Position numbers and translations under genes: made by a program | Source: Burkholderia sp. USMB20 | Lineage (GTDB): Bacteria > Pseudomonadota > Gammaproteobacteria > Burkholderiales > Burkholderiaceae | DNA length: 64,000 bases | Assembly: GCF_000949135.2 (NCBI RefSeq) | Contig: NZ_JTAN02000019.1 | Location: forward strand, 744,001-808,000 | Direction: 5' to 3' | Shown here: positions 9,145-63,478 of the stretch, one piece after another | Layout: each line of letters starts with the position of its first letter | Position numbering within the stretch: the stretch's first letter is position 1 | The notes under the pieces: model-generated | Told to the model about the DNA's origin: nothing | Seen by the model: only the letters and a program-made list of their open reading frames with translations | Database searches by the model: none

Positions 9145-9164
9145 TTCGCCCTTGCCTTGCCACC

Positions 9165-10564: not shown

Positions 10565-10702
10565 CGCGCGCGCGGCGGCGACGCGCGGCGGCACGGCGCG
10601 CGTCCGCGCCCGCGCGCCGCCGCGATCGTTGCGCACGCAACCCCATTCGATCCTGACGGCCTTCATGGACCTTTCAGGGGCCACGGTGTAGCATCGCGGC
10701 CG

Positions 10703-11962: not shown

Positions 11963-12045
11963 AGACTCAAACACCCTGACGCTGAAACGCGTGCGCAGCA
12001 TCACCCACCCGCACGCATCGGCGCACACGCGCGCCACTCTCCGAC

Positions 12046-12076
12046 AAAACGAAAACGGCCCACTTAATGCAGGCCG
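12046..12076 (-). terminator. Possible Rho-independent terminator after fahA
   Basis: Read on the minus strand, a short stem (CGGCC paired with GGCCG, about 11-base loop) is followed by TTTTCGTTTTG. It lies 45-75 bases downstream of the fahA stop, the last gene of the aromatic operon. The stem is short, so confidence is moderate. Confidence 0.45.
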
Positions 12077-12120
12077 CCCTGTCCTTCCGGACTACGCGCT
12101 ACATGTCGCGCCGCGATCCG

Positions 12121-13425
12121 TCACGCGCCCCGCGCGGGAAGGATCTTGCCGGCACAGGTGCCGAAGCCGACGCGATAACCATCGCCCTGGCACCACCCGG
12201 CGAGCGTGAGCTCGTCGCCGTCCTCGATGAACGCGCGGCTGCCGCCGCCGTTCAGCGCGAGCGGCTCCTTGCCGTTCCACGTCAGTTCGAGCAGGCTGCC
12301 GAACGAATCCTTCGTCGGCCCGCTGATCGTGCCCGAACCCATCAGGTCGCCCACGCGCGTGTTGCAGCCCGCGACCGTGTGATGCGCGAGCTGCTGCGCC
12401 ATCGTCCAGTACATGTGCCTGAAGTTGGTGCGGCAGATCGACGTCGCTTCGGCCGCACCTTCGGCGCGCAGCGTCACTTCGAGCGCGATGTCGAATGCAT
12501 GCTTGCCCGCGTGCCGCAGATACGCGAGCGGCTGCGGCGACTGTTCGGGCTGCGCGACGCGAAACGGTTCGAGCGCGTCGAGCGTGACGATCCAGGGCGA
12601 GATCGTCGTCGCGAAGCCCTTCGAGTTGAACGGGCCGAGCGGCACGTATTCCCACTGCTGGATGTCGCGCGCGCTCCAGTCGTTCAGCAGCACCATCCCG
12701 AAGATGTGCGCTTCGGCATCCTCGCACGCGATCGGCTCGCCGAGCGCATTGCCGCGGCCGACGATGAAGCCCGTCTCCAGTTCGATGTCGAGCTTGCGGC
12801 ACGCGCCGAACACCGGACGCTCCTGGTCGGGCAGCTTCAGCTGCCCGTTCGGGCGCCGCACCGGCGTGCCGCTCACGACCACTGACGACGCACGGCCGTT
12901 GTAGCCGATCGGCATCTCCGACCAGTTCGGCAGCAGCGCATTCTTCGGATCGCGAAACATCGAGCCGACGTTGGTCGCATGCTCCTTCGACGAATAGAAA
13001 TCGGTGTAGCCGGGAATGTCGACCGGCAGGTGCAGCGTCGCGTCGCGCTGCGCGACGAGCGCTTGCGCGCGCAACGCGGCGTCATCGCGCAGTCGCGCGT
13101 CGTCGCGTGAAAACAGTGTCGACAGCTGCACGCGCACGCTGCGCCATGCGTCGCGACCGAGCGCGATGAACGCATTGAGCGTCGGCGCGGCGAACACGTC
13201 GGCGCCGGCCGGCAGCGTCACGAGGCCCGCACGCGCGAGCGCGGCGAGGTCGACGATCTGGTCGCCGAGCGCGACGCCCGCGCGGCGCGCCGGTTGCTTC
13301 GCATCGCTGAAGATCCCGAACGGCAGGTTCTGGATCGGGAAATCGCAGGCGGGATCGTTCGCCGTCTCGACCCAGCTCTTGCGAGCCGGGTCGAGCGTCG
13401 CGCGCCAGTCTTGGGTATCGCTCAT
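12121..13425 (-). CDS. fahA: Fumarylacetoacetase
   Basis: The 434-residue protein starts at the ATG at 13425 ([20 protein letters not shown]). It matches fumarylacetoacetate hydrolase over its full length: [11 protein letters not shown] near the N-terminus, then [51 protein letters not shown] and MGSGTISGP. These contain the metal ligands and the substrate pocket. It hydrolyses fumarylacetoacetate to fumarate and acetoacetate, the last step of homogentisate breakdown. Its start overlaps the hmgA stop by four bases (ATGA), so the two are translationally coupled. Confidence 0.95.
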
Positions 13426-46569: not shown

Positions 46570-46878
46570 TCAACCCTCCTGACGCTCGATCAGGAAGCGC
46601 TCGCGGCGCTTCCCCTTGATCCATGCCGGCTCGCGTCCCCGGCCGGACCACGTCGCCCCGGTGTTCGGATCGCGGTACTTCGGCGCGACGGCAGGCGTTT
46701 TTCGCGCCGCCCTCGCGGCACTGCCCTGACGGCCGAATATCTGTCTCGGGGTCAACCCATATTCGGCGACACGGGTACGGACCTCCTGCAGCACGGTCTC
46801 GAGTTCGGCCTGTCGCGCTTCCTCGGCACGTTTCATCAGTTCATTGGCTTGCGCCTTCAATTCGCGATAGCCTGACAT
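46570..46878 (-). CDS. H-NS-family nucleoid-associated protein
   Basis: The 102-residue protein starts at the ATG at 46878 after GGGAGGAAAGGG. It has an N-terminal oligomerisation helix (YRELKAQANELMKRAEEARQ). It has the C-terminal DNA-binding motif YRDPNTGATWSGRGREPAWI, characteristic of H-NS-like proteins in Burkholderia (Bv3F/HvrA type). It silences A+T-rich DNA. It lies between the LysR gene and the broken phosphomannomutase gene. Confidence 0.92.
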   Translation of the reverse strand: MSGYRELKAQANELMKRAEEARQAELETVLQEVRTRVAEYGLTPRQIFGRQGSAARAARKTPAVAPKYRDPNTGATWSGRGREPAWIKGKRRERFLIERQEG

Positions 46879-47044
46879 CCCTTTCCTCCCAATTGCTCCG
46901 GCGCCATGAAAAGCCGAACGGGGCGCAAGCCCCGAACGGTTCGTTGTGTTGTCAACGGGTGGTATCACGCGCGTGCGCCCGACGCGGCACGAGGCCTGTC
47001 TCCCTATGCATCGGATGCGTCGGCAGCACGCGTGCGCACGTCGT

Positions 47045-48448
47045 TCAGAACGGCAGCTCGACGTCCGGCTTGGCGGCCGTCAGCACGCGGCGGAAGTCCG
47101 CCTGGATGCGCTCGAGCCCTTCCTTGGTCTCCGCTTCGAACCGCAGCACGACCACCGGCGTCGTGTTCGACGAACGCGCGAGGCCGAAGCCGTCCGGGTA
47201 CTCGACGCGCAGCCCGTCGATCGTCACGACTTCGTCGGCGCCGTCGAACTTCGCTTCCTGCTGCAGCTTCTCGATCAGGCGGAAGTTCTCGCCCTCCTCG
47301 AGCTTGAGCTGCAGTTCCGGCGTGCTCATCGCGTCCGGCAGCGCATTGAGCAGCGCGCTCGGATCGGCCGTCTTCGCGAGGATCTCGAGCAGGCGCGCGC
47401 CCGTGTAGAGACCGTCGTCGAAGCCGTACCAGCGGTCCTTGAAGAACACGTGGCCGCTCATCTCGCCCGCGAGCGGCGCGCCCGTCTCGCGCAGCTTCGC
47501 CTTCACGAGCGAATGGCCCGTCTTCCACATCAGCGGCTCGCCGCCCTTCGCCTTCACCCACTGCGCGAGATGGCGCGTGCACTTCACGTCGTAGATGATC
47601 TGCGCGCCCGGGTTGCGCGACAGCACTTCCTCCGCGAACAGCATCAGCTGGCGGTCCGGGAAGATGATCTGGCCCGTCCTTCGTGACGACGCCCAGGCGG
47701 TCGCCGTCGCCAGTCGCGCGAAGCCGAGTTGGCGTCGGTGTCTTCAGCGCCTGGATCACGTCCTGCAGGTTTTCCGGGTGCGCGGATCGGGGTGGTGATT
47801 CGAAGACAGTGCACGGATCTGTCGGTGAGCGGCTCGACGAGTTCGCAGCGAGCGCTTGAACAGGCGCGTCGCGAGGGCAGACCGCGACGCTTATATGCCG
47901 AGCAGTCGCGAAGACGAGCTCAGCGGCGCCGCGAGCTTGATGTCGCCAACGATGCGCGCGATGTACTGATCGCGACGTCGAACTGCTCGAACGCGCCGCT
48001 GCCCGTTTTCGAAGCGTCGTCGACGATGCGGCGGTAGCAGCGCTGGATCTGCTCGCCGTAGATCCGCCGCGCCGCGCAGCACCATCCTTGAAGCCGTTGT
48101 AGTCGGGCGGTTTTGGAGGCTGCCGGACGACGATGCACGAATCGACGCGGCGCTCGCCGTCCTTCAGCGCGAGCGGCACGCTCGCCGCGAAATAGCCGAA
48201 CGGGCGTGGGCCACCATGCCGACGTCGACGACGTCGACGCCCCGCCGCACGCAGGCCATCGGCGAGTGGCCCCGACGAGCTCGGGCCCGACAGGCGGCCG
48301 TCGCGCGCGACGACGAACCGCGTCGCCCCCTGGGCGCGCACTTCGCTGCCGAAGGCCCGGCCGATCGCGCGCGCCGTGTCGGCGTCGAGCGTCTTGCCGA
48401 CCCACACCCGCGAATGTCATATGCCTTGAAGATGGATTGGGAGATCAT
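47045..48448 (-). pseudogene. manB: Phosphomannomutase/phosphoglucomutase with a dense patch of frameshifts
   Basis: The ATG at 48448 begins ISQSIFKAYDIRG, and 47045-47644 encodes an intact C-terminal half (IYDVKCTRHLAQWVKAKGGE, GEMSGHVFFKDRWYGFDDGL, IDGLRVEYPDGFGLARSSNT). Between about 47645 and 48410 the family sequence is recognisable only in alternating frames: VGKTLDADTARAIGRAFGSE, then VDVVDVGMV, then FGYFAASVPLALKDGERRV. Substitutions lie between the blocks. The phosphoserine loop (normally TGSHNPPDYNG) reads RQPPKPPDYNG, so the catalytic Ser is lost. The total length (468 codons) is normal. The enzyme supplies mannose-1-phosphate or glucose-1-phosphate for exopolysaccharide and LPS. 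The patch looks like poor sequence more than decay. Confidence 0.8.
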
Positions 48449-48600
48449 CGATTCTCTCTGGGTTGCGTGCATGAAGCAGTCGGACCGTTGCGTGATCGCG
48501 CACTGCGTTCGGATTCAGGATGCCGTCGCGGCGCGCGTACGTCCCTGCGTCCTGACGACGGCGCCGTCCCGATGTCATGACGAACCGTCGCGCGACGAAC

Positions 48601-48834
48601 TCACGCACAGCCTGGCGCGAACTCGTCGCGAAACTCGCAAAACAGCTTGCCGCGCGTGGCGAGGTGGTCGATCTGGGCCAGTGTCAGCGATGCGATGCGC
48701 GATGCCGTCATTTCCGAGACGCCGAGTTGTCGTGTGGCCTCGCTCCGGTTGACGAGGAGCAGCCACTTCGCAAGCATGAGATACGATCGATTGAATTCCG
48801 CGATCGCATCGGAAATGTCGTGTTGTTCGGCCAT
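48601..48834 (-). CDS. Short FlhD-like protein, copy 1
   Basis: The 77-residue protein contains AIAEFNRSYLMLAKWLLLVN, then RQLGVSEMTASRIASLTLAQ and LATRGKLFCEFRDEF. These align with residues 1 to about 70 of flagellar regulator FlhD, including the LG-x(3-8)-LT pattern and the Cys of the L-CxFR motif. It ends before the C-terminal 40-50 residues of FlhD. No flhC gene is adjacent. It lies between the phosphomannomutase gene and bcsC, just beyond the 3' end of the cellulose operon. It may modify FlhDC or act on its own. Confidence 0.75.
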   Translation of the reverse strand: MAEQHDISDAIAEFNRSYLMLAKWLLLVNRSEATRQLGVSEMTASRIASLTLAQIDHLATRGKLFCEFRDEFAPGCA

Positions 48835-49033
48835 GGTCGGTCTTGAAGGGCCAGCGCGTGCGCTTTGCCGGTCGATTCGCTTCGACCCGGTGGTTCGGCA
48901 CTCGCCGGATTTTCGATGACACACTGTACGTCGCGAACGCAGCGCCGGACCGACAAAGCTCTGAACGGATCCGCCAGCGCGCGCAGGCGCGCGTCGATTC
49001 GCGCGGCATCGCCACGGCGCCATGCGGATCCGT

Positions 49034-52000
49034 TCAATCGGCGTCGGCGAGATACGGCGACGTGAACGCGCGCGGCGGGAACGCCGGCAGGCCGCCTTGC
49101 GGCGTAAAGCTGTAACGGAGATAGACGGCCGCCGTCCACTCGCGGTATTGATACGCATTGCCGAACGAAGCCGCTCCACCAACGGCCAGCTGCGGCGCGA
49201 CCTGGTATTCGCCGCGCGCGGCGAGCGAATACGCGATGCCCGTCTTGCTGCGGGCGGGATACACAGCCCCCGCGTCCAGCCCCACCGCCTGGCTGGCGGC
49301 GGCATTCGCGGCCGCTTGCGCCTGCATGCCGGAATCGAGCGGGAAATACGGCACCGCGTTCTGCCGGTAATGCTGCACGCCGAACGAACCGCTCAAATCG
49401 TACGCAAACGCGCCCGTTCGTCCCGCGTACTCGACCGGTATATTCAGGATCACGTATTGCTGCGGACTGAAATAGCCGCCCTGGCCGTACGTGAAATACG
49501 ACTGGTTCTTGCTGAAGTGCATCCATGTCGCATTGACGCCCACGGTGAGCGTCCGGTCGGCGTCGCGCAGCAGGCGCGTATAGGCGCCGCCGCTGCCCTT
49601 GCCGGCGAAGTTGCGTTCGACGTGATGGCCGTCGTAGTAGTCGAACGCGCCCGCGACGTACGCGCCGCTGGTGCCGTCGTCCCAGCTCAGCGCGCCGCGC
49701 GCGCCGCTGCGCGTCACGCCGCCCCACTTGAGGCCGGCACTCGCATCGCGCGCGCCCGCGAACGAAAGCAGGCTGTCGGTCACCGCGCGACGCGTGACGG
49801 CCAGCGAGTAGGCCGCCCGATCGGTGATCGCACCGTTGAAGCGCACGCCGCCGACCACATCCTGGTACGGAAACCCGACCGGCGTCGCGCCGATATCGGC
49901 CTTCAATTGCTTGCCTTCGTAACCCAGGGAGAGACCGACGCCGCTCGCCGTTTCGGAACCCGGCGAGCCGCCGCCGGCCGACCTCGAGAGCCCCGCGCCG
50001 AACCGGGCGAGAGTCGGCACGTCGGTCGCCGAGTTGCCGCCGTCGAGCATGACCGGCGTGGCGGTCACGACGACGTGACCGTTGCCTGCCTTGATACGCC
50101 CTTCCAGCGGCGCCTCGATGTCGGTGAGGCCGGACAGCCCCGCCTCGCCCGTCCGGTTTCGGAACACGAGGCCGCCCGATGCCGTGCTGGCCTGCTCGCT
50201 GTTCACCTGGGCCAGTTCCGACGCGACGTCGAGCATCTGAGCGTTGGCGCCCGCGCCCGCATCCCGCTGCGGCGCACGGGCCACGGCCTCGCTGCCCGCA
50301 TAGCCGGCCGGCGGCTGCGGGATATAGCGAGGCGGCGCATCGGCCTGCCCGTAGGCCGATGAAAGAACGGCGCGCGCGCCCGCGGCGACCTTCGTCCCGC
50401 CGCGGGCCGGCCGCCCGGCCTGGCACCCGACGCGGCCGCCGGCGAACCGGTCGCCGCCGCGGCCCGCGACGCGGGCGACATCGGCCACGGCGTGGCGACG
50501 TAGCCAGCACAGTCGTCGTTCGGATCGGACTGCGCCACGCATCCCGCGGACGCCCCCGCCGGCGGTACGTCCGCGGCAGGCTCCCGATAGGGCTGATAGC
50601 GCCGCGCGGTCGCGGGGCCGCCCGACTCGCCCGCGCCGGCAGCCGCCTGGCCATAGCCGCCGGGATCGCCGGGATCGGCAGTGACCGCCTGCGGCGACAT
50701 GGCGGGCGGCACCATGCGCGCGGCCGGCACGGCGGACGGGGTGACGTAGGTCGCGGGCGGCGCGGGAGGCATCGTATAGGGCACGGTCGGAGCGGACGAA
50801 GACGGGGTGGACCAGGAAGGCACGCCCGGCAGCGGCGATACCGCGGCCCCGAAGCCGGTCGACGGATGAACGACATCGACGGCGGTCTTGCCTTCGAACG
50901 GATTGGTACCGGGCAGCGGGTTCGCGCCGATGCGCCGCATCGCGTCTTCCCAGCCGCGCGGCACGTTCGACGGCGCCGGCTTGCTGCCCGGCGGCGGCGT
51001 ATTGGCGGCCAGCAGCGAACGCTGCAGATACTGCGCGGCGAGCGAAAGATTCCCCTGCGCGCGATACAGGCGGCCGGTCGCGGCAAGCAAGCCCGGGTCA
51101 TCGGGCGCGATGCGCAGCGCCGTGGCCGCGAACGCTTCACCGTCGCGCCATGCCTTCGCGCTGCTCGCCGCGTAGATCGCCGCGACCAGCAAGCCCGTAT
51201 CGTCGGGCCGGCGGGCCAGCGCGACCCGATAGCATTTCAGCGCGTTCGGCGCGTCGCCCGCCGACGTGTACAGCCGCGCGAGCGCGGCCTGGAGTTCGGG
51301 ACTGTCGGGCATCGCGGCCAGCCACGGCGCGATGACGGCGTAGCCGCCGGCGAGGTCGCCGGCCTGGCGTACCGCATCGGCCTGCCGCACGACGATCTCG
51401 AGGTTCAGGCGTTCGAAGTCGCCGCGCTGCGCGGGCGACAGCGGCAGCGCGGCGAGCCGGCGCATCGCGTCGCCCAGCAGCGCATCGTTGCGCACGGTCA
51501 GCAGCGTCCGCGCGTACTGCAGCAGCAAATCGGCGTTGTCCGGCTCGCGCGCCAGCGCACGCTGCACGATCCACAGCGCACGCGACGTGTCGCCGGCCGC
51601 CGCATAGCCCGCCGACAACTGCGCCGCGAGTCCCGGCACCGACTGGCCGATCCCCTCGGCGTCGTGCAGCACGCCGAGCGCCTGCGCGCGGCGGCCTTCG
51701 CGCACCAGCCGTGTCGCGAGTGCCACCTGCTGGCCCACCCAGAGGCGGTGCTGCAACGTCGTCATCGCCGCCGTGCGTTGCGCGGGCGCGATGCGCTCCA
51801 GCCGCTGCAGCCCGAGGCTCCAGTCTTGCGTCTGCTCGGCCAGCAGCGCGCCGGCATAGAGTGCGTCGGTCATGTCGGGCCGTTCGGCCAGCAATCCGTC
51901 CATCATGCTGCGCGCCGACGCGATCGCGCCTTGCCGCACGTACACGCGCGCCAGATCCAGCCGCAGCCACGGATCGTCCGGATTGCCGGCAAGCGCGTCC

Positions 52001-53496
52001 TCGAACAGGCTGCGCGCCGTGCCCAGATCGCCGCGCGCTTCGGCTTGCCGCGCCTGCGCGGCCTCGGCCGTACGACGCAACCGGTCGAGGCCGCCGGCCT
52101 TCGCCTGCTGCTCGGCGCTCAGTTGCGTCGCGAACTGCAACGCTTCGTCGCCGCGCCCCTGCGCGGCCAGCGCGCCGACCAGGCCGCGTATCGCGTCCGG
52201 GTTGTCGGACTGACGCCGCAGCGCCATCCGGTACGCCTGCTCGGCGCCGCGCGCATCGCGATTCTCCAGCAGCGCGTCGCCGAGCATCACCTGCGCGGTC
52301 ACGTTCGACGGATCGGCAAGAATCGCGCGTTCGAACAGCGCCTTCGCTCGCGCGAACTCGCCGTTGCTTTGCGCGCCGAGCGCCTCGCTCGTGTACGACC
52401 AGTACGTCGCACTGCCGAGCGCCGAGCGCCAGCGCGCCGCGTTCCCGCCTCGCGACGCGCGCTCCAGATCGCTGCGTGCCTGCGCGAAGTGCTCCTGCTT
52501 CAGTTCGACGATGCCGCGGCCGCCCAGCGCGTCGCTGTCGTTCGGCGACGTGGCGAGCACGGCATTGAAGCGGGCGCGCGCCGTGTCCAGATCGCCGCGC
52601 TCGAGTGCCGCAAAACCATCCTCGATCGCGTGGCCGCGCGCTTCGTTCGATGCGCTGCGTTGATCGCCCTCGCGCGCGGTTTGATCCTGTCGCACCATGC
52701 TGTCGTAGCGCGCCTTGACCGGCGGATCGTCGGGCACCACCTTCAGATAGGCGAGGTAGCGCGCCTGATCCGACGGCCTGGCCGCGAGCCAGAGCAGCGC
52801 CTGGCGCCAGCTCTCGCGCGCCGCCTTCCCGACTTTCGCATCGGCGGACAACGACTCGAGCCGCGCGATGCCGTCGCGGCGCGTCGCGTCGCGATAGGTC
52901 AGGTGCTGCGCATACGCGAGTGCGTAGCGCGGATCGTCGGGGTTGTCACGCGCGAGACGCTCCAGGCCGCGGCGGGCTTCGGCCCATCCGCTCGGCGTCG
53001 CCGCGAGCGCCTGGAAGTACTCGAGCTGCAGCGCGGGCGACGACGGCGCGCCCTGCAGCGCGCGCTGATACTGTTGCGCGGCCAGCGCGCTCTGCCCCGT
53101 CTGCGCGAGGCGGCGCGCGTCGCTGATCTCGCCGTCGCGCACGCTCGTCTCGCCCAGACGCTGGCCTAGCTCGTCGGTCCGCGCGAAGCCGGGCGCGATC
53201 CGGCGCAATTGTTCCAGGTAGCGGCGCGCACCGTCGACGTCCTTGCGGTCGGCGAGCACCATGCCCATGCCGAACAGCGCGTCGGGCTGATTCGGATCGA
53301 CGCCCAGCACCTTCTTCCAGGCCTGCGCCGCGAGGTCGCCCCGGCCATGCGCCTGCCAGTATCGCCCCTGATCGACGAGCACCTTCAGCGGGTCGCTGCC
53401 GGCCGCCGCCGCGTGCGGCAGTGTCAGCGCGAGCAGCAGACTCGCGATACCGCCCGCGCGGGCGGCGCCGAGCCCGCGTAACCGTCGGTTTCGCAT
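49034..53496 (-). pseudogene. bcsC: Cellulose synthase outer-membrane subunit BcsC, frameshifted
   Basis: From the ATG at 53496 come a signal peptide (ASLLLALTLPHAAAAGS) and about 20 TPR-like repeats (GMGMVLADRKDVDGARRYLE and others). A Pro-rich linker follows to about 50420. The outer-membrane beta-barrel domain (GVNATWMHFSKNQSYFTYGQ, YREWTAAVYLRYSFTPQGG) continues to 49034, but in another frame. The shift is in the GC-rich linker at about 50396-50430. The gene is one base short of a whole number of codons, so a single-base loss is likely. With it restored the protein would be about 1,487 residues. BcsC guides cellulose through the periplasm and outer membrane. Confidence 0.85.
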
Positions 53497-53497
53497 G

Positions 53498-56005
53498 TCA
53501 CTCCTTCAGCCGGCGCGCCGCACGCGCACGCAGCAGACGATAGAAGAGCGCCGCCGCGACGAACGCGGCCAGCACGCTGAACAGCGCAAGCAGCAGCGGA
53601 CGCCCCGACAGAAACCAGCGCAGGTACGTGACCGGCGGCAGCGCACCGACGTGATACGACGTTTCGTTCGACGTCACCGTGACGGTGCGATCGCGAATCA
53701 CGACCATCGCGCCCTGGACCGACGTGAGCATGTCGTCGTCGAGCAGTGCGCGGCCGAGCGCCTCGTCCGCCTGCCCGCTCGCGCTGATCAACGCGACAGC
53801 GCTGCGCGTCTTGCGCAACGGCGACTCGAAGCCGGCGATCAGCGCGCGCGTGCCGTCCGAGACGATCGACAGGCCGGCGCGCACGCGTTCGCGCTCGGCG
53901 TCAGGCGACGGCGCCGCCTCGGCGCCGCCGAACAGGCCACCGAACCGGCCGCCAAACAGGCCGCCGTCGCGATCCGTGCCGAACGGCATGCGCGCCGCCC
54001 AGCGCGTCAGCAGCGGCTGGGTGTCCGGCGCGCCGAGAATCAGCAGATCCTTGGACGCGAACGCGCCGACACCGGCGGCGTCCGTCACCGTCACACCGCT
54101 GACCGGATAGCCCGTGGACACGCCCATGCGTCCCATCGCGAGCAGGTACAGGCCGTAGACGTCCGCGCCCGGCTCGGCGGGCAGCACGACGGCCGTGTCC
54201 GACAGGTCGGCCATCCGCGTGAACGGAAAGCCGCTGTTCGCAAACGCGGCGAGGTCGGGCAGCGCCTTGTAGTGCGGAAACGACGACACGTCGATCGTCG
54301 AGTCCGGGTCGATCGAACCCGCGACGTTCTGCAGCAGCCGCCCCGTGCATCGGCCCATGTCCGGGATCTCGTAGAAGAAGTGCAGCTGCAACGGCGTGCG
54401 CGGCGTGAGCAGCAGCGGCGGCACGTGCAGCGTCGCGCGGTCGATACCGTTGGCGACGAACGGCAGGTAGCGGCTCAGGCTCCAGCGCGACGTTTCCCGT
54501 GCCGGGATCGGCAGCGCCTTCACGAACGTGTCGCCGACGCTCAGGTTGAGCGACGAACGGTCCGCGCGCAGCGTCGGCGTGTAGCGATAACGCAGGTCGA
54601 TCGGTGCGCCGCGCGTATCCCAGGTGAACAGATCGGGGGCGACGCGCAGATCGATCCGGACGGCGCCCGCGTCGTATCCGGACACGCTGAGCGCGCGCCC
54701 GTCGGCCAGTTCGCCGATCCGCACCGGGCGCGTCGACGACAGCCAGTTCGGCGCGTCGTACGGCACGCGCGGCGCGACGTTCTCGAGCCGGCTCACCGTG
54801 GCATGCGTACCCGCCAGCGTCTTGCTGCCGAGCACGAGCGTGAGCGCGGCGACCTTCACTTCGTCCGGCGTGCGACCGAGCACCAGCAGCAGCTGGCCGT
54901 GAGCCGGCGCCTGCCGCTCGACGACGGCCAGCGTCGGTCCGTCGATCGCCGGCAGCGTCACGCCGTCCAGACGATCGTCGGCCGTCGCGAACACCACCGC
55001 GTTGCCCGATTCAGGCAGGCCGCCGGGCCGGGCCGGAAACCGCGCGCCGCGATACGAGGCCAGCGCGCCGAACCACGACGCGACGATGCCCGCCGCTTCC
55101 AGCGTCTCCCGCGGCGGTCGCGCGGCGAATGCGAACGGCAGCTCGAGCCGCCGGACGTCCCGCGAATCGAAGAACGGCGCGGGCAGGACGCCGAGTTCCG
55201 GCCGCTCCGGCAGCGCCGCATAGGTCAGCTCGAGCCGGCTCGCGTTGCTCACCGTTGCCCACAGCGACGAGTTGGCGGGATCCTCGCAGTCTTTCGTGTA
55301 ATGACCGATCAGCTGAACGTTCAGATGGTTGTACTCGGTGACGAAGCGCGGATCGATCGACACGTCGCGCGCAACCGTCATGCCGGCTTGAGCGGCCGGC
55401 AACGGCAGCGTCGCCGCCACTTCGCCGTTGATCAGCACCTTGAGCTGCGACAGATCCGGCAGCAGCGCGGGCGAGTAGCTGTAGACCAGATGCAGCGTCG
55501 CGCCCATGACGACCTCGTCGCGCCGGACCGAGAACGCGATGCCGTTCTGGCCGTCGGTACCCCGCAGCTGCAGCGGATCGCGTGCCCCGAGATCAGCGAA
55601 CGTCAATGCCTGGCGCCGGCCGCCGGGCACGAGCGTGCCGGGCTCGGCCGTGGTCGGCAGCATACCGAAGCGGCGACGCGCGGCGTCGGCCGCCGGCACC
55701 GGTTCGGCGAGCGGCGCGGGGCGCGCGGTGTCGGGCCCGACGACTATGGCCGGCGACGGCGGCGCCGCATCGCCCGACGACATCGCGCCATCCGCCGCGC
55801 GCATCGCGCCGGGCGCCTGCATCCCGGCGGCCGCTGCCCAGCTGCCCGATGCGATGCCGCCCGCCATTGCCCAGAGCAGTAGCGACACCATCCTGCGCGA
55901 CACGCGCGCATACCGGCCGACACGTGCAGGAACCGCGACAACCGCGCCCTGCGAAATGCACGCCTTGCGGCGCGTGCTGCCGCGCTGTCGCGACGCCCAC
56001 GTCAT
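53498..56005 (-). CDS. bcsB: Cellulose synthase periplasmic subunit BcsB
   Basis: The 835-residue protein starts at the ATG at 56005. It has an N-terminal membrane signal (MVSLLLWAMAGGIASGSWAA), BcsB carbohydrate-binding and flavodoxin-like domains (SFPHYKALPDLAAFANSGFP) and one C-terminal membrane anchor (FLSGRPLLLALFSVLAAFV). A Gly/Phe-rich stretch (GGLFGGRFGGLFGG) lies near residue 680. It joins BcsA in the inner membrane complex. It ends one base before the bcsC start and begins 15 bases after the bcsA stop. Confidence 0.92.
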   Translation of the reverse strand: MTWASRQRGSTRRKACISQGAVVAVPARVGRYARVSRRMVSLLLWAMAGGIASGSWAAAAGMQAPGAMRAADGAMSSGDAAPPSPAIVVGPDTARPAPLAEPVPAADAARRRFGMLPTTAEPGTLVPGGRRQALTFADLGARDPLQLRGTDGQNGIAFSVRRDEVVMGATLHLVYSYSPALLPDLSQLKVLINGEVAATLPLPAAQAGMTVARDVSIDPRFVTEYNHLNVQLIGHYTKDCEDPANSSLWATVSNASRLELTYAALPERPELGVLPAPFFDSRDVRRLELPFAFAARPPRETLEAAGIVASWFGALASYRGARFPARPGGLPESGNAVVFATADDRLDGVTLPAIDGPTLAVVERQAPAHGQLLLVLGRTPDEVKVAALTLVLGSKTLAGTHATVSRLENVAPRVPYDAPNWLSSTRPVRIGELADGRALSVSGYDAGAVRIDLRVAPDLFTWDTRGAPIDLRYRYTPTLRADRSSLNLSVGDTFVKALPIPARETSRWSLSRYLPFVANGIDRATLHVPPLLLTPRTPLQLHFFYEIPDMGRCTGRLLQNVAGSIDPDSTIDVSSFPHYKALPDLAAFANSGFPFTRMADLSDTAVVLPAEPGADVYGLYLLAMGRMGVSTGYPVSGVTVTDAAGVGAFASKDLLILGAPDTQPLLTRWAARMPFGTDRDGGLFGGRFGGLFGGAEAAPSPDAERERVRAGLSIVSDGTRALIAGFESPLRKTRSAVALISASGQADEALGRALLDDDMLTSVQGAMVVIRDRTVTVTSNETSYHVGALPPVTYLRWFLSGRPLLLALFSVLAAFVAAALFYRLLRARAARRLKE

Positions 56006-56020
56006 TCTTTCCGCCTCATG

Positions 56021-58255
56021 CTATTTTTTTTCGTTGCTGCGGCCGCCACGCGCGTACACGCGCAGGTCCGCGTACAGGCGCGCGATCAGGCGAAGCAAGC
56101 CCTGCACGCCGACCTTCAACAGATGCAGGAACGCACGCAGCGGCGAATCGGGACGGCGGCCGTCCGTCCAGTCGATCCATGCGTCGGCTCGGGCAAAGGT
56201 CGAACTGACGAGATCGAACTCCTGCTGCTGCGACAGGCTCTCGAACCGGATGCCGACGCGCCCCGGTTCGACGTATTCGACCGTCGCGGGAAATGCGTAC
56301 TCCTCGACACCGCGAAACAGCGATACCGTCACCAGCTCGCCACGCGGAATGCGCGCATCGTCGGGGACTGCCACGCCGATCCCGCCCTCCGAGTAGTCGC
56401 GCGTTTCGCATGCCAGCGTCCGGCCATTCGCGAAGCGCAGCATGACCGGAATCCGCGCCGCGACACGATGGGACACGCGTACCTGCCGGCGCTCGTTCGC
56501 CGCCGCGACGGCGAGCCCCAGAATCAGGATGTTGTAGGTCGTCCATGCCAGGTTGAACGCCGTCGTCTGGACTTCGCTGCCGACGTGACGGTTGAGCGAC
56601 AGGTTCAGGACGCCCACCGCGAGGCCGATCACGTTCAGGACCACCAGGCTCAGATACGGTTTCGACACTGCCCAGTCGAAGTAGCCGCGGTCGATGCGTC
56701 CGCCCTTGGCCGTCACGTTGAACTTGCCCAGTCGGGGATTGATCAGCGCAAGCATCGTCGGCAGCGCGATGTACGACGCGAGCACGGCTTCGTAGACTTC
56801 GGCCCAGAACGAATGGCGGAAGCGGCCCTGCATCCGCGAGTTCGTCACGTTCGCATGGATGACGTGGGGCAGCGCATAGAGCGCAAGCATCGTGGCCGGG
56901 GCATGGATCACATGCGCGTCGAAGAACAGGAACGACAGCGGTGCGGTCAGGAACACGAGCCGCGGGATCCCGTAGAAAAAATGCATCATCGCGTTCAGGT
57001 AGCACAGCCGCTGGCTCAGCGTCAGTCCGCGCCCGAACAGCGGGTTGTCGATGCGGAATATCTGCGTCATGCCGCGCGCCCAGCGGATGCGCTGGCCGAT
57101 GTGCCCGGTCAGGCTCTCGGTGGCCAGCCCCGCCGCCTGCGGTATCGCAAGATAGGCCGTCGTATAGCCGCGGCGATGCAGCTTGAGCGCGGTGTGCGCA
57201 TCCTCGGTCACCGTCTCCGTCGCGATGCCGCCGATCTCCTCCACCATCGAGCGGCGCATCAGCGCGCACGATCCGCAGAAAAACGTCGCGTTCCAGAGAT
57301 CGTTGCCGTCCTGCACCAGTCCGTAGAACAGTTCGCCTTCGTTCGGCACCTTTCTGAAAATGCCGAGGTTGCGCTCGAACGGGTCCGGCGAAAAAAAGTG
57401 ATGCGGCGTCTGCAGCATCGACAGCTTTGGATCCCGAATGAACCAGCCTAGACAGATCTGCAGGAACGAGCGCGTCGGCACGTGATCGCAATCGAAGATC
57501 GCGATGTATTCGCCGTCGGTGATCTTCAATGCTTCGTTGAGGTTGCCGGCCTTGGCATGGCGATTGTGATCGCGAATCGTCCAGTGCACGCCGACCGACT
57601 CGCAGAACGCGCGGAATTCCGGGCGACGTCCGTCGTCCAGCACGTGGATCGACAGCTTGTCGGCCGGGTAATCCAGCGCGAGCGCCGCGTAGATGGTCGG
57701 CTTGACGACGCTCAACGGTTCGTTGTACGTCGGAATGAACACGTCGACGCTCGGCCAATGCGCGCGCGACGCGGGCAATGGCAGCGGCTTGCGCCCGAGC
57801 GGCCACGCGGTCTGGAAGTAGCCGAGGATCAGCACCGCCGCCGCATAGACTTCGGCCGCCGCGAGCAGCGTGCCCCACACCGCGTCGAGCGGATGCGACC
57901 ACACCAGCGTGCCGGACAATCTCCAATACATGTAACGGCCGGTGGCCACCACCGACAGCACGATCATGACGAGCGTCGCATAGCGTCCGCCCAGGCGACG
58001 GACCACCAGCGAACAGGCGATGCAGCAGGTGGCGAACACGAGCTGCCCGATCGCGTCGAGCGGCACCGTACACACGAAATACAGCGCCAGCAGCGTGCAC
58101 GCGGCCACCGGCAGCGCGACGAACCAGCCGCTCCCGGGCAATGCATCGACGAACCGGTCGACCGCCGACGGCCGCGCGACCTCCCCGCGGGCGCTCAAGC
58201 GATGCTCCGCGCGGTGTCGCGCCGAGCGAGCACGCGCTCGAGCCATGCACCGCAC
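56021..58255 (-). CDS. bcsA: Cellulose synthase catalytic subunit BcsA
   Basis: The 744-residue protein is a family 2 glycosyltransferase with all key motifs: DDG (207-209), DCD (255-257), TED (350-352, catalytic base) and QRIRW (388-392). It has about eight membrane helices and a C-terminal PilZ domain (ERRQVRVSHR then DYSEGGIGVAV) that binds c-di-GMP. It polymerises UDP-glucose to cellulose. The start is taken at 58255 and overlaps bcsQ by 61 bases; an ATG at 58246 is also possible. Confidence 0.92.
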   Translation of the reverse strand: MRCMARARARSARHRAEHRLSARGEVARPSAVDRFVDALPGSGWFVALPVAACTLLALYFVCTVPLDAIGQLVFATCCIACSLVVRRLGGRYATLVMIVLSVVATGRYMYWRLSGTLVWSHPLDAVWGTLLAAAEVYAAAVLILGYFQTAWPLGRKPLPLPASRAHWPSVDVFIPTYNEPLSVVKPTIYAALALDYPADKLSIHVLDDGRRPEFRAFCESVGVHWTIRDHNRHAKAGNLNEALKITDGEYIAIFDCDHVPTRSFLQICLGWFIRDPKLSMLQTPHHFFSPDPFERNLGIFRKVPNEGELFYGLVQDGNDLWNATFFCGSCALMRRSMVEEIGGIATETVTEDAHTALKLHRRGYTTAYLAIPQAAGLATESLTGHIGQRIRWARGMTQIFRIDNPLFGRGLTLSQRLCYLNAMMHFFYGIPRLVFLTAPLSFLFFDAHVIHAPATMLALYALPHVIHANVTNSRMQGRFRHSFWAEVYEAVLASYIALPTMLALINPRLGKFNVTAKGGRIDRGYFDWAVSKPYLSLVVLNVIGLAVGVLNLSLNRHVGSEVQTTAFNLAWTTYNILILGLAVAAANERRQVRVSHRVAARIPVMLRFANGRTLACETRDYSEGGIGVAVPDDARIPRGELVTVSLFRGVEEYAFPATVEYVEPGRVGIRFESLSQQQEFDLVSSTFARADAWIDWTDGRRPDSPLRAFLHLLKVGVQGLLRLIARLYADLRVYARGGRSNEKK

Positions 58256-58974
58256 GCGTTCAGGTCGGCGGCGGCCTGCGAACGCGGGTCGTAGCGATTC
58301 ACGGTCGTCCGGGACGCGAGCGATTCCGCGACCCCTTCATCGCGGTGAATCACGCCGCCGAACCGCGCCGCGCCGAGGCTGTCGCACAGCACGCGCAGCA
58401 CATCGCGGCCCAACTCGCGCGACTGATCGACCTGATTGACCACGTAGCCGTCGCCCACGAAATCCGCGCGGCTCGCGGCATACGCGTCGAGCATCCGCCG
58501 CATCTGCGGAATCGTTGCGTACGAGGCCGCATCGGCCAGCACGACCTTGAGCACGAAATGCGCGGCCGTCAGCGCGGCGCGCATGTATACCGAGGTGCCC
58601 GGCGGTGTATCGATGATCACGATGTCGTCGTCGCCGAGCCCGAGCGCGGCAAGCCCGTGCGCGAGCCACGATGGATCGCGGTCGAGCAGCCGCTCGAAGC
58701 GGCGTTGATCCGTTTCGCTGACCAGGCCGAACGGAAACACCGTGATCCCGTCGACGACCACGGCCGGCCAGTTCAGCCTGTCGAGCGCAGCATGGGCGAG
58801 CCCGTCGGTCATGTCGAGCGGCACGCCGAAATGCAGCTTCAGCGCATTCTGCGGATCGAGATCCACCACGCTCACGCGCCGGCGTCGCGACGCCGCCAAC
58901 ACGGCCGCGAGATTCGCCGCCAGCGTCGTCTTTCCGACGCCGCCCTTTGCCGAAGCGATCGCGACGATTTTCAT
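58195..58974 (-). CDS. bcsQ: Cellulose biosynthesis ParA-like ATPase BcsQ
   Basis: The 259-residue protein starts at the ATG at 58974 (MKIVAIASAKGGVGKTTLAA), which overlaps the upstream stop as ATGA. The deviant Walker A KGGVGKTT (10-17), VVDLDPQNAL and IIDTPPGTS show a MinD/ParA ATPase. BcsQ is needed for polar location of the cellulose synthase. It precedes bcsA. Confidence 0.9.
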   Translation of the reverse strand: MKIVAIASAKGGVGKTTLAANLAAVLAASRRRRVSVVDLDPQNALKLHFGVPLDMTDGLAHAALDRLNWPAVVVDGITVFPFGLVSETDQRRFERLLDRDPSWLAHGLAALGLGDDDIVIIDTPPGTSVYMRAALTAAHFVLKVVLADAASYATIPQMRRMLDAYAASRADFVGDGYVVNQVDQSRELGRDVLRVLCDSLGAARFGGVIHRDEGVAESLASRTTVNRYDPRSQAAADLNACGAWLERVLARRDTARSIA

Positions 58975-59396
58975 GAGCGGCCGGTCCACACCGACGGCTT
59001 CTTCGGCGCCTCGCCCGTCGGCTCCGTGCGCAGCCGCTCGAACAACCGAACCAGCGGCTGTGACGGACCTTGCGCGTCCGTGCCATCCGATGCCGCCGGC
59101 CTGCCGACCAGTTTCTTCAGCGTGCCGGATGCTTGTTCGCGCCCGCCGTTATCCTGCGCGGACGCAGGCAACGCACGCGTGTCGGCCAGTACGATTTTGC
59201 GCAGGCTGTCCGCGCCGTCCGGCGACCCGGCGCCCGGTTGCCCGTGCGACTCACTCGCGCGCAACTCGACACCGCCGAGCAGCGGCCAACGCGCGCGTGC
59301 CACTTCGGCGTCCGCTTCCGCACGTACTTCGTGATAGCGTCCGGCATCGCCGCCAAAACGCTTGAACAACGATTCGATATCCCGTGAAGTCGACAT
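58971..59396 (-). CDS. bcsP: Cellulose biosynthesis protein BcsP
   Basis: The 141-residue protein has the conserved N-terminus DIESLFKRFGGDAGRYHEVR of BcsP/BcsR-like proteins. A long, Ser/Gly/Pro-rich, probably disordered region follows, with a short basic C-terminal motif (QPLVRLFERLRTEP). BcsP is thought to pair with BcsQ. It overlaps bcsQ by four bases and follows bcsD by 45 bases. Confidence 0.85.
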   Translation of the reverse strand: MSTSRDIESLFKRFGGDAGRYHEVRAEADAEVARARWPLLGGVELRASESHGQPGAGSPDGADSLRKIVLADTRALPASAQDNGGREQASGTLKKLVGRPAASDGTDAQGPSQPLVRLFERLRTEPTGEAPKKPSVWTGRS

Positions 59397-59441
59397 AGCG
59401 TGCCCATTGGTTATCGCGGAAGTTCCGGTCGGCCCGGTCGC

Positions 59442-59897
59442 TCAGTTCTTTGCGCGCGCAACACGCAGTTCGATCCGCGAATCGTCCGGCGGCGCGACGT
59501 CCTGCGTCACGCGCAAACCGGTCGCGCCGACACTGTCGAACCAGCCCTGATACGCGCCTTCGAGGAAGGCGGAAGACCATGCGAGACAGCCGTCGCCGAA
59601 CGCGCGCAACGGCGCGGCGTAATGAACGATGCGCAGGAAATCGTGTTCGTCGGACAGTTCGGCGTAACCCCACTGCATGTCGCGCCAGCGGGCATTCAAT
59701 GCATCCGCGAGATCGTCCGTCGACTCGCAAGGGCCAAGTGGATGCGCGGCTGCGAAGCGCATGCCGATGCGCGCCATCAATTGCCTCAGCTCGTCCCGAT
59801 CGAGCTGATCGGTGAATTCACCGGCCAATGCCTCCAGGAAGCCGCGCCATTGGATCGACACATGGCGCTCGAGTAGATGCTCCAACATTCCCTGCAT
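59442..59897 (-). CDS. bcsD: Cellulose synthase subunit BcsD
   Basis: The protein has 151 residues from the ATG at 59897 (MQGMLEHLLERHVSIQWRGF); a TTG at 59924 would add nine residues. It has the BcsD pattern WRGFLEALAGEFTDQLDRDE, then LMARIGMRFAAAHPL, and FLRIVHYAAPLRAFGDG near the end. BcsD forms a periplasmic octamer that helps cellulose crystallisation. It is the first gene of the operon bcsDPQABC. No bcsZ (cellulase) gene was seen in the operon. Confidence 0.88.
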   Translation of the reverse strand: MQGMLEHLLERHVSIQWRGFLEALAGEFTDQLDRDELRQLMARIGMRFAAAHPLGPCESTDDLADALNARWRDMQWGYAELSDEHDFLRIVHYAAPLRAFGDGCLAWSSAFLEGAYQGWFDSVGATGLRVTQDVAPPDDSRIELRVARAKN

Positions 59898-60180
59898 GGA
59901 CGACGAATCCCCGGTGAAAGACAATTATCGGCGTGGCCGCATCGTGTGCTTCGCGTGCGGACATCGTGGCAACAGCGTTTTTGCGCATCGTAGCGAATCC
60001 AATTAGACGAATGGGATTCGACATCTAGCCGAAAAACGCCAAACTATCGGCCACCGCCGACAATTGACGGGCGTGGCCACGGCGGCAGCCGAGCGGCGAT
60101 TGGCCGCGCGGACAGGCAAGCCGATATACGGCCAGGCTCGTGCGCGGCGCGACGCATGAAACGTTGGAAAGGTCGCCGTA

Positions 60181-60414
60181 TCAGGCCCGGCCGGGCGAGG
60201 ATTCCGCGCGGAATTCGCAGAACAACTCGCGACGCTCGGCGAGTTCGTCGATCTGTGCCGGCGTCAATGCGGCAACGATCGCAGCCGTCTCGTCCGACAT
60301 GCCCAGTTGTTGTTTCGCCGCTTCGCGATCCGCTTGCAGCAAGCGCTGGGCAAGCGTCAGATACGAACGGTTGAATTCCGCAATCGCGTCGAAGATGTCG
60401 TCCTGTTCGGACAT
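60181..60414 (-). CDS. Short FlhD-like protein, copy 2
   Basis: The 77-residue protein (ATG at 60414) is closely related to copy 1. It has AIAEFNRSYLTLAQRLLQAD (very near the FlhD core IxxxNLSYLLLAQRL), then QQLGMSDETAAIVAALTPAQ and LAERRELFCEFRAE. It also lacks the C-terminal third of FlhD. It lies 517 bases upstream of bcsD on the same strand, so it could be at the head of the cellulose transcript or regulate it. Confidence 0.78.
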   Translation of the reverse strand: MSEQDDIFDAIAEFNRSYLTLAQRLLQADREAAKQQLGMSDETAAIVAALTPAQIDELAERRELFCEFRAESSPGRA

Positions 60415-60687
60415 GGGCGTTCCTGATTTTGGACGGTGATTGCATTCAGCCGGCCGCAGCGCGCGTATTGGCAATACGCGGAGTTTCGGCCCCGCACTCT
60501 ACGTGTCGCGCACGGCGACGAGCGGACAAAACCTAGCGGTAATCCGCCACCTCGCGGGTTGCTCGTATTTCCGTTCGTGAAAACACGACACGACGGAGCG
60601 GCGGCATACGGTTCGGCAAAGTCGCGTGGCGATCGCCGGCCCACCCAAATGCTTGCCGGAACGCGCAGCGCCGCCGGCAGATGCCTG

Positions 60688-60921
60688 CTATGCAGCCCGT
60701 GTCACGCGCTCGCGCCAGAAATCCCCGCGGGCGCCGAAAATCTTGCTGCACCATTTGGTGCCGTCCCAATACACGGGAAAGCCGTACGGATGTCCCGGCC
60801 ATCGGCCCTCACACCACATCGGTTCCGCGGGAGGATCGGTGCATGGAAGCCAGACACCGGCCCAGCCGGTGCGCTGCCGTTGTTCGGATATCGTCATGGT
60901 GTCTATGGTCGAATGCGTCAT
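60688..60921 (-). CDS. Trp-rich 77-aa protein, unknown
   Basis: The ATG at 60921 follows GTGGAG at six bases. Seven Trp occur in 77 residues (GWAGVWLPCTDPPAEP, MWCEGRWPGHPYGFPVYWDG, TKWCSKIFGARGDFWRERV). Three Cys are spread over the chain. No family was recognised. It lies between the second and third FlhD-like genes on the same strand, so it could belong to the same small regulon. The Trp content is not what a random frame in this GC-rich DNA would give. Confidence 0.55.
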   Translation of the reverse strand: MTHSTIDTMTISEQRQRTGWAGVWLPCTDPPAEPMWCEGRWPGHPYGFPVYWDGTKWCSKIFGARGDFWRERVTRAA

Positions 60922-61138
60922 GGTGACTCCACTTTCGCCCTTCTGTTTGGCAATTGCGTTTCAACGATAAATATATTTCGTTCGGTTCTTTTTCTTCCTT
61001 CGCATATAGCGGGAGCGTGGCGCGCTTTCGTCCACGCATGCCGGAAACTCGACGGCTCCCGGCCACGGGGCCACCATCGCAATCCGGCCCGCACATTTGC
61101 AAGCAGGTGTTGCGACGAGACGACGCCAGCGTTGCCAT

Positions 61139-61336
61139 CTACGGCTGCGATCCGCGGCCGACCAGCGCTTCGATCTCGGTTGGCGTCAGCGCGATGATCC
61201 GTGACGCGATCTGATTCGAGATGCCCAACTCGCGTGCCGCGACCTCGCAATCGATCTTCAACATCTGCTGCATCAGTTCGAGATAGGCAGGATCGAGTGC
61301 GCCCAACGCCCGGCAAATATCATCCTCTTCCGTCAT
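61139..61336 (-). CDS. Short FlhD-like protein, copy 3 (divergent, truncated)
   Basis: The 65-residue protein starts at the ATG at 61336, five bases after AGGAGA. MTEEDDICRALGALDPAYLE, ARELGISNQIASRIIALTPT and EIEALVGRG align with copies 1 and 2. It stops before the L-CEFR motif, so the conserved cysteine and the end of the core helix are gone. It is the farthest of the three from the cellulose genes and the most divergent. Confidence 0.65.
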   Translation of the reverse strand: MTEEDDICRALGALDPAYLELMQQMLKIDCEVAARELGISNQIASRIIALTPTEIEALVGRGSQP

Positions 61337-61737
61337 CACGCTCTCCTAAAGACATGCCCGTGAACGCGATGCATCGGCACACACTCGCATCTGCAAAATC
61401 CGACCGGGTTCCGGGCTTTCGCTTCGAACCGTATCCCAACCAAGCGAACGCCTGTCGACAAACGACAGCCGTCATCCGCTATATAACGCCGAGCCGGCCA
61501 TTTGCACACTGTTTCAAAATAATTCTTGCGCCAACGTATGGTTTCGCAATCAACCTGTCGGATTCGCCCAAGATTCAGTCGCCGCTTTATTTCCGAACAC
61601 ATTAGGATTTCCCGAATCGCACGTGCGCGGCCAGGCAATTGCGTCCTGTGCGACTTCGAATCTCTTGTTGCGTCCGGACACCGACATCGCACCTCGACGT
61701 TGTCTGCTCTTCATTCCGAACTCATGGAATTACCACT
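61337..61737. other. A+T-richer region upstream of galU
   Basis: No gene is visible here. The G+C content falls compared with the neighbours, especially at 61500-61640. It separates the minus-strand FlhD-like gene from plus-strand galU and probably carries their divergent promoters, but no clear box could be assigned. Confidence 0.5.
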
Positions 61738-62622
61738 ATGTTGAAAGTGACGAAAGCCGTCTTTCCGGTCGCCGGCCTGGGCACGCGGTTCCTGCCGGCC
61801 ACCAAGGCCAGTCCCAAGGAAATGCTGCCGGTCGTGGACAAACCATTGATCCAGTATGCGGTCGAGGAAGCGATCGAAGCGGGCATCACGGAGATGATTT
61901 TCGTGACCGGACGCAGCAAGCGCGCGATCGAGGATCATTTCGACAAGTCGTACGAGATCGAGGCCGAACTCGAGGCACGCGGCAAGGACAAGCTGCTGTC
62001 GCTGGTGCGCAGCATCAAGCCGAGCCATGTCGACTGCTTTTACGTGCGCCAGGCCGAAGCGCTCGGGCTCGGCCATGCCGTGCTGTGCGCGGAGAAGCTC
62101 GTCGGCGACAATCCGTTCGCGGTGATCCTCGCCGACGATTTGCTCGATGGCCCGAAGCCGGTGTTACGCCAGATGATCGACGTCTTCGATCACTATCATG
62201 CGTCGGTCATCGGGGTCGAGGAAATCGCTCCCGAAGATTCGAAATCCTATGGCGTGATCGACGGCAAGCGCTGGGAAGACGATCTCTTCAAGCTGTCCGG
62301 CATCGTCGAGAAGCCCGAACCGGCGAATGCGCCGTCGAACTTCGGCGTGGTCGGCCGTTACGTATTGAAACCGAAGATCTTCGAGCATCTCCGCGGGCTC
62401 AAACCCGGCGCGGGCGGCGAATTGCAACTGACCGACGCGATCCAGTCGCTGCTCACCGATGAACAGGTGCTCGCGTATCGCTACGACGGCACGCGCTTCG
62501 ATTGCGGCAGCAAGCTCGGGTACCTGAAGGCGACGATCGAGTTCGCGCTGCGGCATCCGGAGGTTGCGGCGGACTTCGAGCGGTATTTGCTTGCGCGGAT
62601 GTCGGAACAGCTGGTCGTCTGA
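61738..62622 (+). CDS. galU: UTP-glucose-1-phosphate uridylyltransferase
   Basis: The 294-residue protein has the nucleotidyltransferase loop AGLGTRFLPATKASPKEMLP at the N-terminus and VVDKPLIQYAVEEA. It also has LADDLLDGPKPVL for the metal site, GIVEKPEP with a catalytic-site Glu, and DCGSKLGYLKA near the end. It makes UDP-glucose, the substrate of BcsA and of many exopolysaccharide enzymes. It is divergent from the FlhD-like/cellulose side and heads the following plus-strand genes. Confidence 0.95.
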   Translation: MLKVTKAVFPVAGLGTRFLPATKASPKEMLPVVDKPLIQYAVEEAIEAGITEMIFVTGRSKRAIEDHFDKSYEIEAELEARGKDKLLSLVRSIKPSHVDCFYVRQAEALGLGHAVLCAEKLVGDNPFAVILADDLLDGPKPVLRQMIDVFDHYHASVIGVEEIAPEDSKSYGVIDGKRWEDDLFKLSGIVEKPEPANAPSNFGVVGRYVLKPKIFEHLRGLKPGAGGELQLTDAIQSLLTDEQVLAYRYDGTRFDCGSKLGYLKATIEFALRHPEVAADFERYLLARMSEQLVV

Positions 62623-63302: not shown

Positions 63303-63478
63303 CGACTGTCTGCCGCATCGGGTAACGCTGCCCGCGGCGTGCAATCTCGCCCACGATTCACACGGCCGCCGCAGACGATTGGCGGCACCGATCAACATTC
63401 TGTCGGACTCGCACGATAAGCATTACCGACAATGCGCTTATAACGCACCGCACCATTTTTATCTTTCGCTGGGAGCCG

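Follow-up and report, generated by a model that had tools for sequence, protein, structure and literature searches.

FlhD, a subunit of FlhD4C2, is usually regarded as the master regulator of motility. FlhDC-like activators are also employed outside motility, as is the case for SetCD and AcaCD of SXT elements and IncA/C plasmids, and the EAL-fold proteins YdiV and STM1697 act against FlhD4C2. Here we describe three short FlhD-like genes, c1, c2 and c3, in a 64,000-nucleotide stretch of Burkholderia sp. USMB20 (contig NZ_JTAN02000019.1, positions 744,001 to 808,000, the window hereafter), where they accompany the cellulose genes bcsDPQABC and a paralogue of galU, galU3. Judged by their sequences, c1-c3 are members of a conserved short family, which we call FlhD', and not decayed FlhD; the anchor of the family is the third galU, not cellulose. 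FlhD' resembles FlhD of FlhD4C2 in its N-terminal core, in the fold modelled for c2 and in Cys65, which is present in c1 and c2; it differs in having neither the C-terminal arm nor an adjacent flhC, in the replacement of Phe34, Arg35, Asn61 and Val55, and in adjoining galU3 instead of flagellar genes. SetCD and AcaCD are two-subunit activators, whereas FlhD' has no adjacent C subunit; a Burkholderia FlhC query gave no nearby match, a distant C subunit not having been searched for. FlhD' would dampen FlhD4C2 as YdiV and STM1697 do, but it is itself an FlhD relative and not an EAL-fold protein. The additional FlhDC pairs of Burkholderia (loci L101 and L103-L106) also supply extra FlhD paralogues, but these are full length and have an adjacent flhC. 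Our best guess, to which we give a probability of about 0.4, is that FlhD' would be a co-expressed, FlhC-less partner that lowers FlhD activity by dimerisation; the anatomy of the locus is solid and regular, its molecular action a guess.

A first-pass annotation of the window had described three copies of the N-terminal core of FlhD that lack an FlhC partner and lie on the strand of bcsDPQABC, on both flanks of the operon, the third having lost the Cys motif. The three copies are present at the coordinates of Table 1 and the profile search, in which a lack of match to FlhD was to count as refutation, returned FlhD (PF05247) for each of them, with 50.3, 63.7 and 28.1 bits for c1, c2 and c3, the gathering score of 27 being barely passed by c3. 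The matches cover positions 3-68, 3-70 and 4-57, respectively, of the 102 in the profile, and the cut-off of 90 bits of the NCBIfam FlhD equivalog (NF002783) is not reached (49.6, 64.1 and 28.4 bits). A tblastn search of the window gave no FlhC, and the positions of the open reading frames (ORFs) agree with the described layout, the minus-strand order from galU3 being c3, c2, bcsD, bcsP, bcsQ, bcsA, bcsB, bcsC, c1, pgm and an H-NS-family gene. c3 stops before Cys65, a loss that is inherited, as Cys65 is missing alike from c3 of the window and of genomes G001 (the nearest to that of the window), G004, G052, G064 and G065. Scans of the window with Rfam and for tRNAs gave no matches. Open orthologues were found in other genomes for c1 (3), c2 (5) and c3 (5), counts that include locus L071, which for c2 is identical to L070. 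Together with the low ratios of nonsynonymous to synonymous substitution rates (dN/dS) given below, these orthologues confirm that the three genes are a real observation, beyond chance.

In order to define the family, we compared 65 Burkholderia genomes. Full FlhD and FlhC occur in 65 of 65 and FlhD' in 27; the loci compared and the window gave 33 sequences of exactly 77 amino acids, 32 of them distinct. The median dN/dS was 0.13 for the galU3-adjacent flhD' genes of loci without bcs (14 genes, 91 pairs, maximum 0.46), 0.13 for c2 (5 genes, 10 pairs) and 0.16 for c1 (4 genes, 6 pairs), and the c3 core ranged from 0.07 to 0.26 (10 pairs), showing that the family is under purifying selection. 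It is very improbable that c1-c3 have no function, as remains of FlhD or as side products of recombination near bcs. In favour of this, G001 has a broken c1, G064 has none, and flhD' debris lies beside bcs clusters elsewhere, but the constant length of 77 amino acids, the conserved promoter and a dN/dS of about 0.13 argue against it, and because of the low dN/dS this explanation is largely refuted for the family, while single copies may still be decaying. In a tree from which L071 (a near-repeat of L070) and broken copies were omitted, c1 and its three orthologues form one group (support 100/96), c2 a separate group (86/93, not starred) and c3 a group (100/100) nested with the galU3-adjacent copies of G029, G031 and G048 (99/98). 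c3 is therefore the continuation of the galU3-adjacent line with its tail lost, and c1 and c2 are extra paralogues. Genome G042 has two short FlhD genes, a divergent one of 77 amino acids on a long tree branch away from galU3 (L092, G042:C53, 6024-6254) and another beside galU3 (L093). Other FlhD-like ORFs, in L098 and L100, match up to profile position 83 and fall outside the 77-amino-acid family, with no FlhC match in the locus. In L108 (3348-6275) and L109 (5996-8914), very long open frames of 973-976 amino acids carry a short FlhD-like stretch, perhaps a degraded copy, close to their end.

The closest copy of the window GalU is 89-99% identical in 27 of the 65 genomes, the next copies reaching at most 86%, and upstream of galU3 each of these 27 has a short flhD in divergent orientation. 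The distance from galU3 to the nearest flhD' is 343-761 bp in 26 genomes and 2,040 bp in G018, in which a transposase-like ORF (L090, 4479-5594) lies between the two genes and widens the gap. In the window, the genes downstream of galU3 encode a phosphatase of the PAP2 type and then the WcaI-type glycosyltransferase. The pair was also found in records of B. ambifaria, B. latens, B. seminalis and B. paludis, which are not independent of the 65-genome set, and in those of B. multivorans and B. pyrrocinia; galU3 counterparts carry the name GalU in L152 and L153. The B. pyrrocinia stretch, 28 kb long, has no bcs, and the neighbours of the pair there are kdsA, kdsB and a KpsF-type isomerase.

The bcs genes lie beside galU3-flhD' in only 7 of the 27 loci (G001, G004, G031, G048, G052, G064 and G065), and the 20 loci without bcs there led us to reject cellulose as the specific anchor. 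Seen from the side of cellulose, 30 BcsQ matches, a part of all those obtained, were compared as loci: 13 have a BcsA of the window type (75.7-95.5% identity over 440-485 amino acids) and 17 a second type (60.4-63.9%), and flhD' lies near 7 of the 13 window-type clusters, every one of them at galU3. In G047 and G059 a window-type bcs with long and open bcsA, bcsB and bcsC lies away from galU3; G059 retains a frame-broken remnant of c2 (tblastn E 4.7e-7) and G047 a stretch resembling the c1 promoter 3' of bcsC. That bcs stays open while flhD' decays speaks against a requirement of cellulose synthesis for flhD'. No flhD' or promoter remnant was found in L074-L077, which also have window-type bcs. 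L152 (B. multivorans NZ_CP143553.1) lists c3, c2, bcsD and bcsP at 8763-12294 and yjfF as the next gene, and appears to have lost most of bcs with both short flhD genes still annotated. Of the motility-cellulose link proposed in the first-pass annotation, the connection with sessile-lifestyle genes thus stands and the cellulose anchor does not; likewise, the survey of bcs neighbourhoods that it had suggested, with absence or random placement as the outcome that would speak against the idea, revealed a very regular placement, centred on galU.

The search was extended to 299 genomes of the host's family (25 genera), in most of which no more than 19 candidates per genome were scored. Among the matches listed, down to an E of about 9e-18, all those of at least 87.9 bits belong to Burkholderia and the following ones reach at most 79.8 bits. 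One match of 78.4 bits is an 81-amino-acid FlhD-like protein of another genus (G147; L154, 4352-4594) that retains Cys65 and has Arg15, Arg34, Leu35, Pro51, Glu55 and Asp61, the changes at 15, 34, 35, 55 and 61 being those of FlhD' in Burkholderia. Its gene precedes, by 176 bases and in this case on the same strand, a galU that is 84% identical to galU3; among the 11 genomes of that genus, a third galU and a close short FlhD match each occur in G147 only, and no FlhC or H-NS match was found in the 9 kb of the locus. The G147 locus is independent support for the pairing of flhD' with galU3, and because of this 81-amino-acid relative beside a third galU a strict limit of FlhD' to Burkholderia was dropped. 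A literature search of open-licence PMC papers found no description of the FlhD' family and no paper associated with structure 8j56; within the passages retrieved, PMC6978641 and PMC7444824 have FlhD or FlhDC once each, in the reference list only, and those of PMC5507470 and PMC10448790 do not mention FlhD.

A conserved block precedes flhD'. It was defined on 25 chosen flhD' copies, c3 excluded, as 54 bases of fixed length from the first half-site, and starts 121-153 bases before the start codon with TGKCGGAT-N11-TTTGTCGGC, followed in 25/25 copies by a -10-like box at offset 48 that begins with TA and ends with T; the second half-site is absent from L092. On the galU3 side, in the opposite direction, TGTCSGAT was found in 25 of the 27 loci (not in L067 and L082; L088 not read). 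Each of these 25 half-sites is accompanied by a TA(C/G)(G/C)AT box, at offset 48 in 24 loci and at 47 in the window; a stricter pattern matched 23/27 loci. At the level of sequence, galU3 and flhD' are thus shown to have a common predicted promoter layout. A joint matrix, the training set of which included the c2, galU3 and c1 sites, also scored the wcaI and c3 sites outside the training (Table 1), the best of 10 shuffles reaching 10.3. Counterparts of the wcaI block precede the same gene in L065, L066 and L070 (21.9-25.6) and in L152 (17.4). One further joint-matrix site in the window, at 2055 on the minus strand (18.2), lies far from the polysaccharide locus and is unexplained.

The exact pattern TGKCGGA-N12-WTTGTCSG has 31 matches in the 65 genomes, 28 of them at flhD' loci (25 before an intact flhD', one before the broken c1 of G001 and two in the c1-less G064 and G065) and three elsewhere (G044, G054 and G060); the reversed pattern gave none in the same genomes. 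As 28/31 matches sit at flhD' loci, we rejected the idea that the exact motif marks a wide regulon. The pattern occurs in 22 of the 27 galU3 genomes and, at the place orthologous to the c1 block, in G001, G004, G031, G052, G064 and G065. In L070 the c1 ORF is gone and the c1 promoter remains directly before pgm (78% identity over 106 bases), suggesting that the block probably serves pgm too. At G147, TGTCGGAT is found 135 bases upstream of the start, and TAGACT follows at offset 47. One activator may read all of these sites, and would then induce flhD' jointly with galU3 and the sugar genes nearby, with c2 as the putative leader gene of bcs and c1 as that of pgm.

Table 1. Features of the window discussed in the text (coordinates of c1, c2 and c3 include stop codons).
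Feature	Position	Strand	Evidence or remark
H-NS-family gene	46573-46878	-	Pfam Histone_HNS 2.8e-14
pgm, phosphoglucomutase/phosphomannomutase, frame-broken	47045-48472	-	PGM_PMM III and IV on last ORF
c1, short FlhD-like gene, 77 amino acids	48601-48834	-	bcsC/pgm intergenic; Pfam FlhD 3e-13
flhD' promoter block before c1	48923-48976	-	block matrix 57.2, in training set; joint matrix 29.6
bcsC, two overlapping ORFs (50203-53496, 49034-50542)	49034-53496	-	ORF list
bcsA, bcsB	53498-58198	-	Pfam Cellulose_synt/PilZ, BcsB
bcsD, bcsP (BcsR-like), bcsQ	58195-59924	-	Pfam Cellsynth_D, CBP_BcsR, CBP_BcsQ
c2, short FlhD-like gene, 77 amino acids	60181-60414	-	upstream of bcsD; Pfam FlhD 2.1e-17
flhD' promoter block before c2	60496-60549	-	block matrix 59.1, in training set; joint matrix 43.0
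c3, shorter FlhD-like gene, 65 amino acids, without Cys65	61139-61336	-	first gene divergent from galU3; Pfam FlhD 2.6e-6
weaker block before c3	61428-61481	-	block matrix 20.6, joint matrix 19.8; outside training sets
block layout on galU3 side	61556-61609	+	-10-like box at offset 47; joint-matrix training set; joint matrix 35.3
galU3, UTP-glucose-1-phosphate uridylyltransferase paralogue	61738-62622	+	Pfam NTP_transferase 4.2e-29; divergent from c3
weak block before WcaI-type glycosyltransferase gene (wcaI)	63380-63433	+	joint matrix 21.9, box GACAAT, outside training set

The split of bcsC (49034-53496) and pgm (47004-48472) into overlapping ORFs in the window could be sequencing error or real decay, the two being indistinguishable; bcsC is a single ORF of 1479-1537 amino acids in L065, L066, L067, L069 and L070, and pgm a single ORF of 450 amino acids in L065, L066, L069 and L070.

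As regards the protein, the closest solved structure to c2 is E. coli FlhD (PDB 1g8e, E 4.7e-11), and c2, the one copy for which this comparison and the modelling were made, gave an AlphaFold2 model with a mean predicted local distance difference test score of 85.8. The model aligns with the chains of 2avu and 1g8e with a template modelling score of 0.80 at 43% identity, and its ten best PDB matches are all FlhD or FlhD-complex entries, so that the predicted fold of c2 is shown to be that of FlhD. The 32 distinct short sequences were then compared with 21 distinct full FlhD (from 31 loci, in 29 of which it was recognised). Asn14, Tyr17, Gly37, Ala43, Thr50 and Cys65 are retained in every short sequence (Cys65 in 32/32); the short sequences all lack the C-terminal arm beyond about residue 76, as the proteins end at 77 amino acids. 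Phe34, Arg35 and Asn61 are each present in 21/21 full FlhD and in 0/32 short sequences; residues 28, 34, 35, 61 and 82-84 of FlhD are reported from alanine-scanning work to have a role in binding DNA or FlhC. Val55 is replaced in every short sequence, by Asp or Glu in 31/32; position 15 is Arg in 25/32 and position 51 is Pro in 18/32. Position 66, near the two-fold axis, is Arg in 21/21 full FlhD and Glu in 24/32 short sequences, an exchange that could favour FlhD-FlhD' pairs.

In no flhD' locus compared was a match to FlhC found, whereas FlhC was found beside full FlhD in L101, L103-L106 and L128-L139. The idea that FlhD' still pairs with the FlhC of the genome, forming an alternative FlhD'-FlhC activator of polysaccharide promoters, draws on the presence of FlhC in every genome and is quite improbable, given the replaced Phe34, Arg35 and Asn61, the missing arm and a promoter block unlike the FlhD4C2 box, which a passage of the YdiV paper gives as 17-18 bp inverted repeats with a 10-11 bp spacer (PMC3510510). 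Passages of the same paper also place FlhD residues 15, 19, 51 and 55 in the contact with YdiV, overlapping the D2-D3 contact, describe Cys65 as forming the disulfide of the FlhD dimer, and cite FlhD alone as being without DNA binding (PMC3510510). According to them, E. coli FlhD fragment 1-71 suffices for YdiV binding (PMC3510510), so that FlhD' could shield FlhD by acting as a decoy towards YdiV or other anti-FlhD proteins of the EAL type; the changes at positions 15, 51 and 55, however, alter the YdiV face, and we consider a decoy most improbable.

A different explanation arises from the H-NS-family neighbour. Of the 20 galU3 loci that have no bcs, 14 have an H-NS-family gene directly after flhD', in the same orientation and 105-131 bp away, and in B. 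pyrrocinia too it comes directly after flhD'; in the window and in four genomes (G004, G052, G064 and G065) the H-NS gene is found on the far side of bcs, c1 and pgm. Since the H-NS gene directly follows flhD' elsewhere, the bcs-c1-pgm block sits between two otherwise neighbouring genes. With a median net charge of -6, FlhD' is more acidic than the corresponding part of FlhD (-1), and the H-NS of B. pyrrocinia is basic (+10). Hha pairing with H-NS offers a loose parallel for a small, acidic, helical partner of H-NS, although no Hha/YmoA family membership was found for c1-c3, FlhD being the sole Pfam family above cut-off for each. FlhD' may thus act on the polysaccharide locus as a co-regulator of the adjacent H-NS-family protein, with no flagellar role, a possibility with which the altered flagellar partner surfaces agree and which we hold tentatively, ranking it just behind the damping of FlhD as nearly as likely. 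Against it, no H-NS match was found near flhD' in 9 of the 27 galU3 genomes (six that have no bcs beside galU3, plus G031, G048 and G001, which have it, the G001 locus being at a contig end) or at the G147 locus, and the adjacency may merely mark a regulatory locus. A more far-reaching version, in which FlhD' and the H-NS-family protein would form a two-protein polysaccharide switch, with an FlhD fold recruited from flagella without FlhC and duplicated as the leader of each operon joining the regulon (galU3 locus, bcs, pgm), seems unlikely.

Damping of FlhD by dimerisation, the reading that we prefer, like the heterodimers proposed in the first-pass annotation, fits the combination of a conserved Cys65 and altered partner-side residues. 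FlhD' would use the Cys65 face that it retains to pair with full FlhD but would be unable to hold FlhC or to close the FlhD4C2 ring, so that activation of flagellar genes would fall during polysaccharide production; these steps are weaker than the joint switching-on proposed above. Several points weigh against it. c3 has no Cys65 and yet has a low dN/dS, and therefore the Cys65 face cannot explain every copy; moreover, Cys65 is the only known member of the dimer interface among the residues concerned. With positions 15 and 55 changed, FlhD' would furthermore be kept from the inner D2-D3 contact, and a poisoned ring is therefore less likely than simple titration. One pair of galU3-adjacent flhD' genes reaches a dN/dS of 0.46. 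The exact promoter pattern is absent from 5 of the 27 galU3 genomes (G018, G039, G042, G046 and G048), and the block matrix score is negative at G147, in another genus, so that the promoter likeness there is resemblance only. Finally, the module of galU3 and flhD' is missing from 38 of the 65 Burkholderia genomes, in which no galU exceeds 86% identity.

The three short genes in the B. multivorans and B. pyrrocinia records bear the NCBI name "flagellar transcriptional regulator FlhD", an annotation that would mislead motility studies and that would be corrected if our reading is true. If these genes do belong to the polysaccharide regulon and feed back on FlhD or H-NS, slime production and the end of swimming would be directly hard-wired to each other in Burkholderia, and the wiring of flhD' to exopolysaccharide genes may help the cell to trade swimming for a sticky life.

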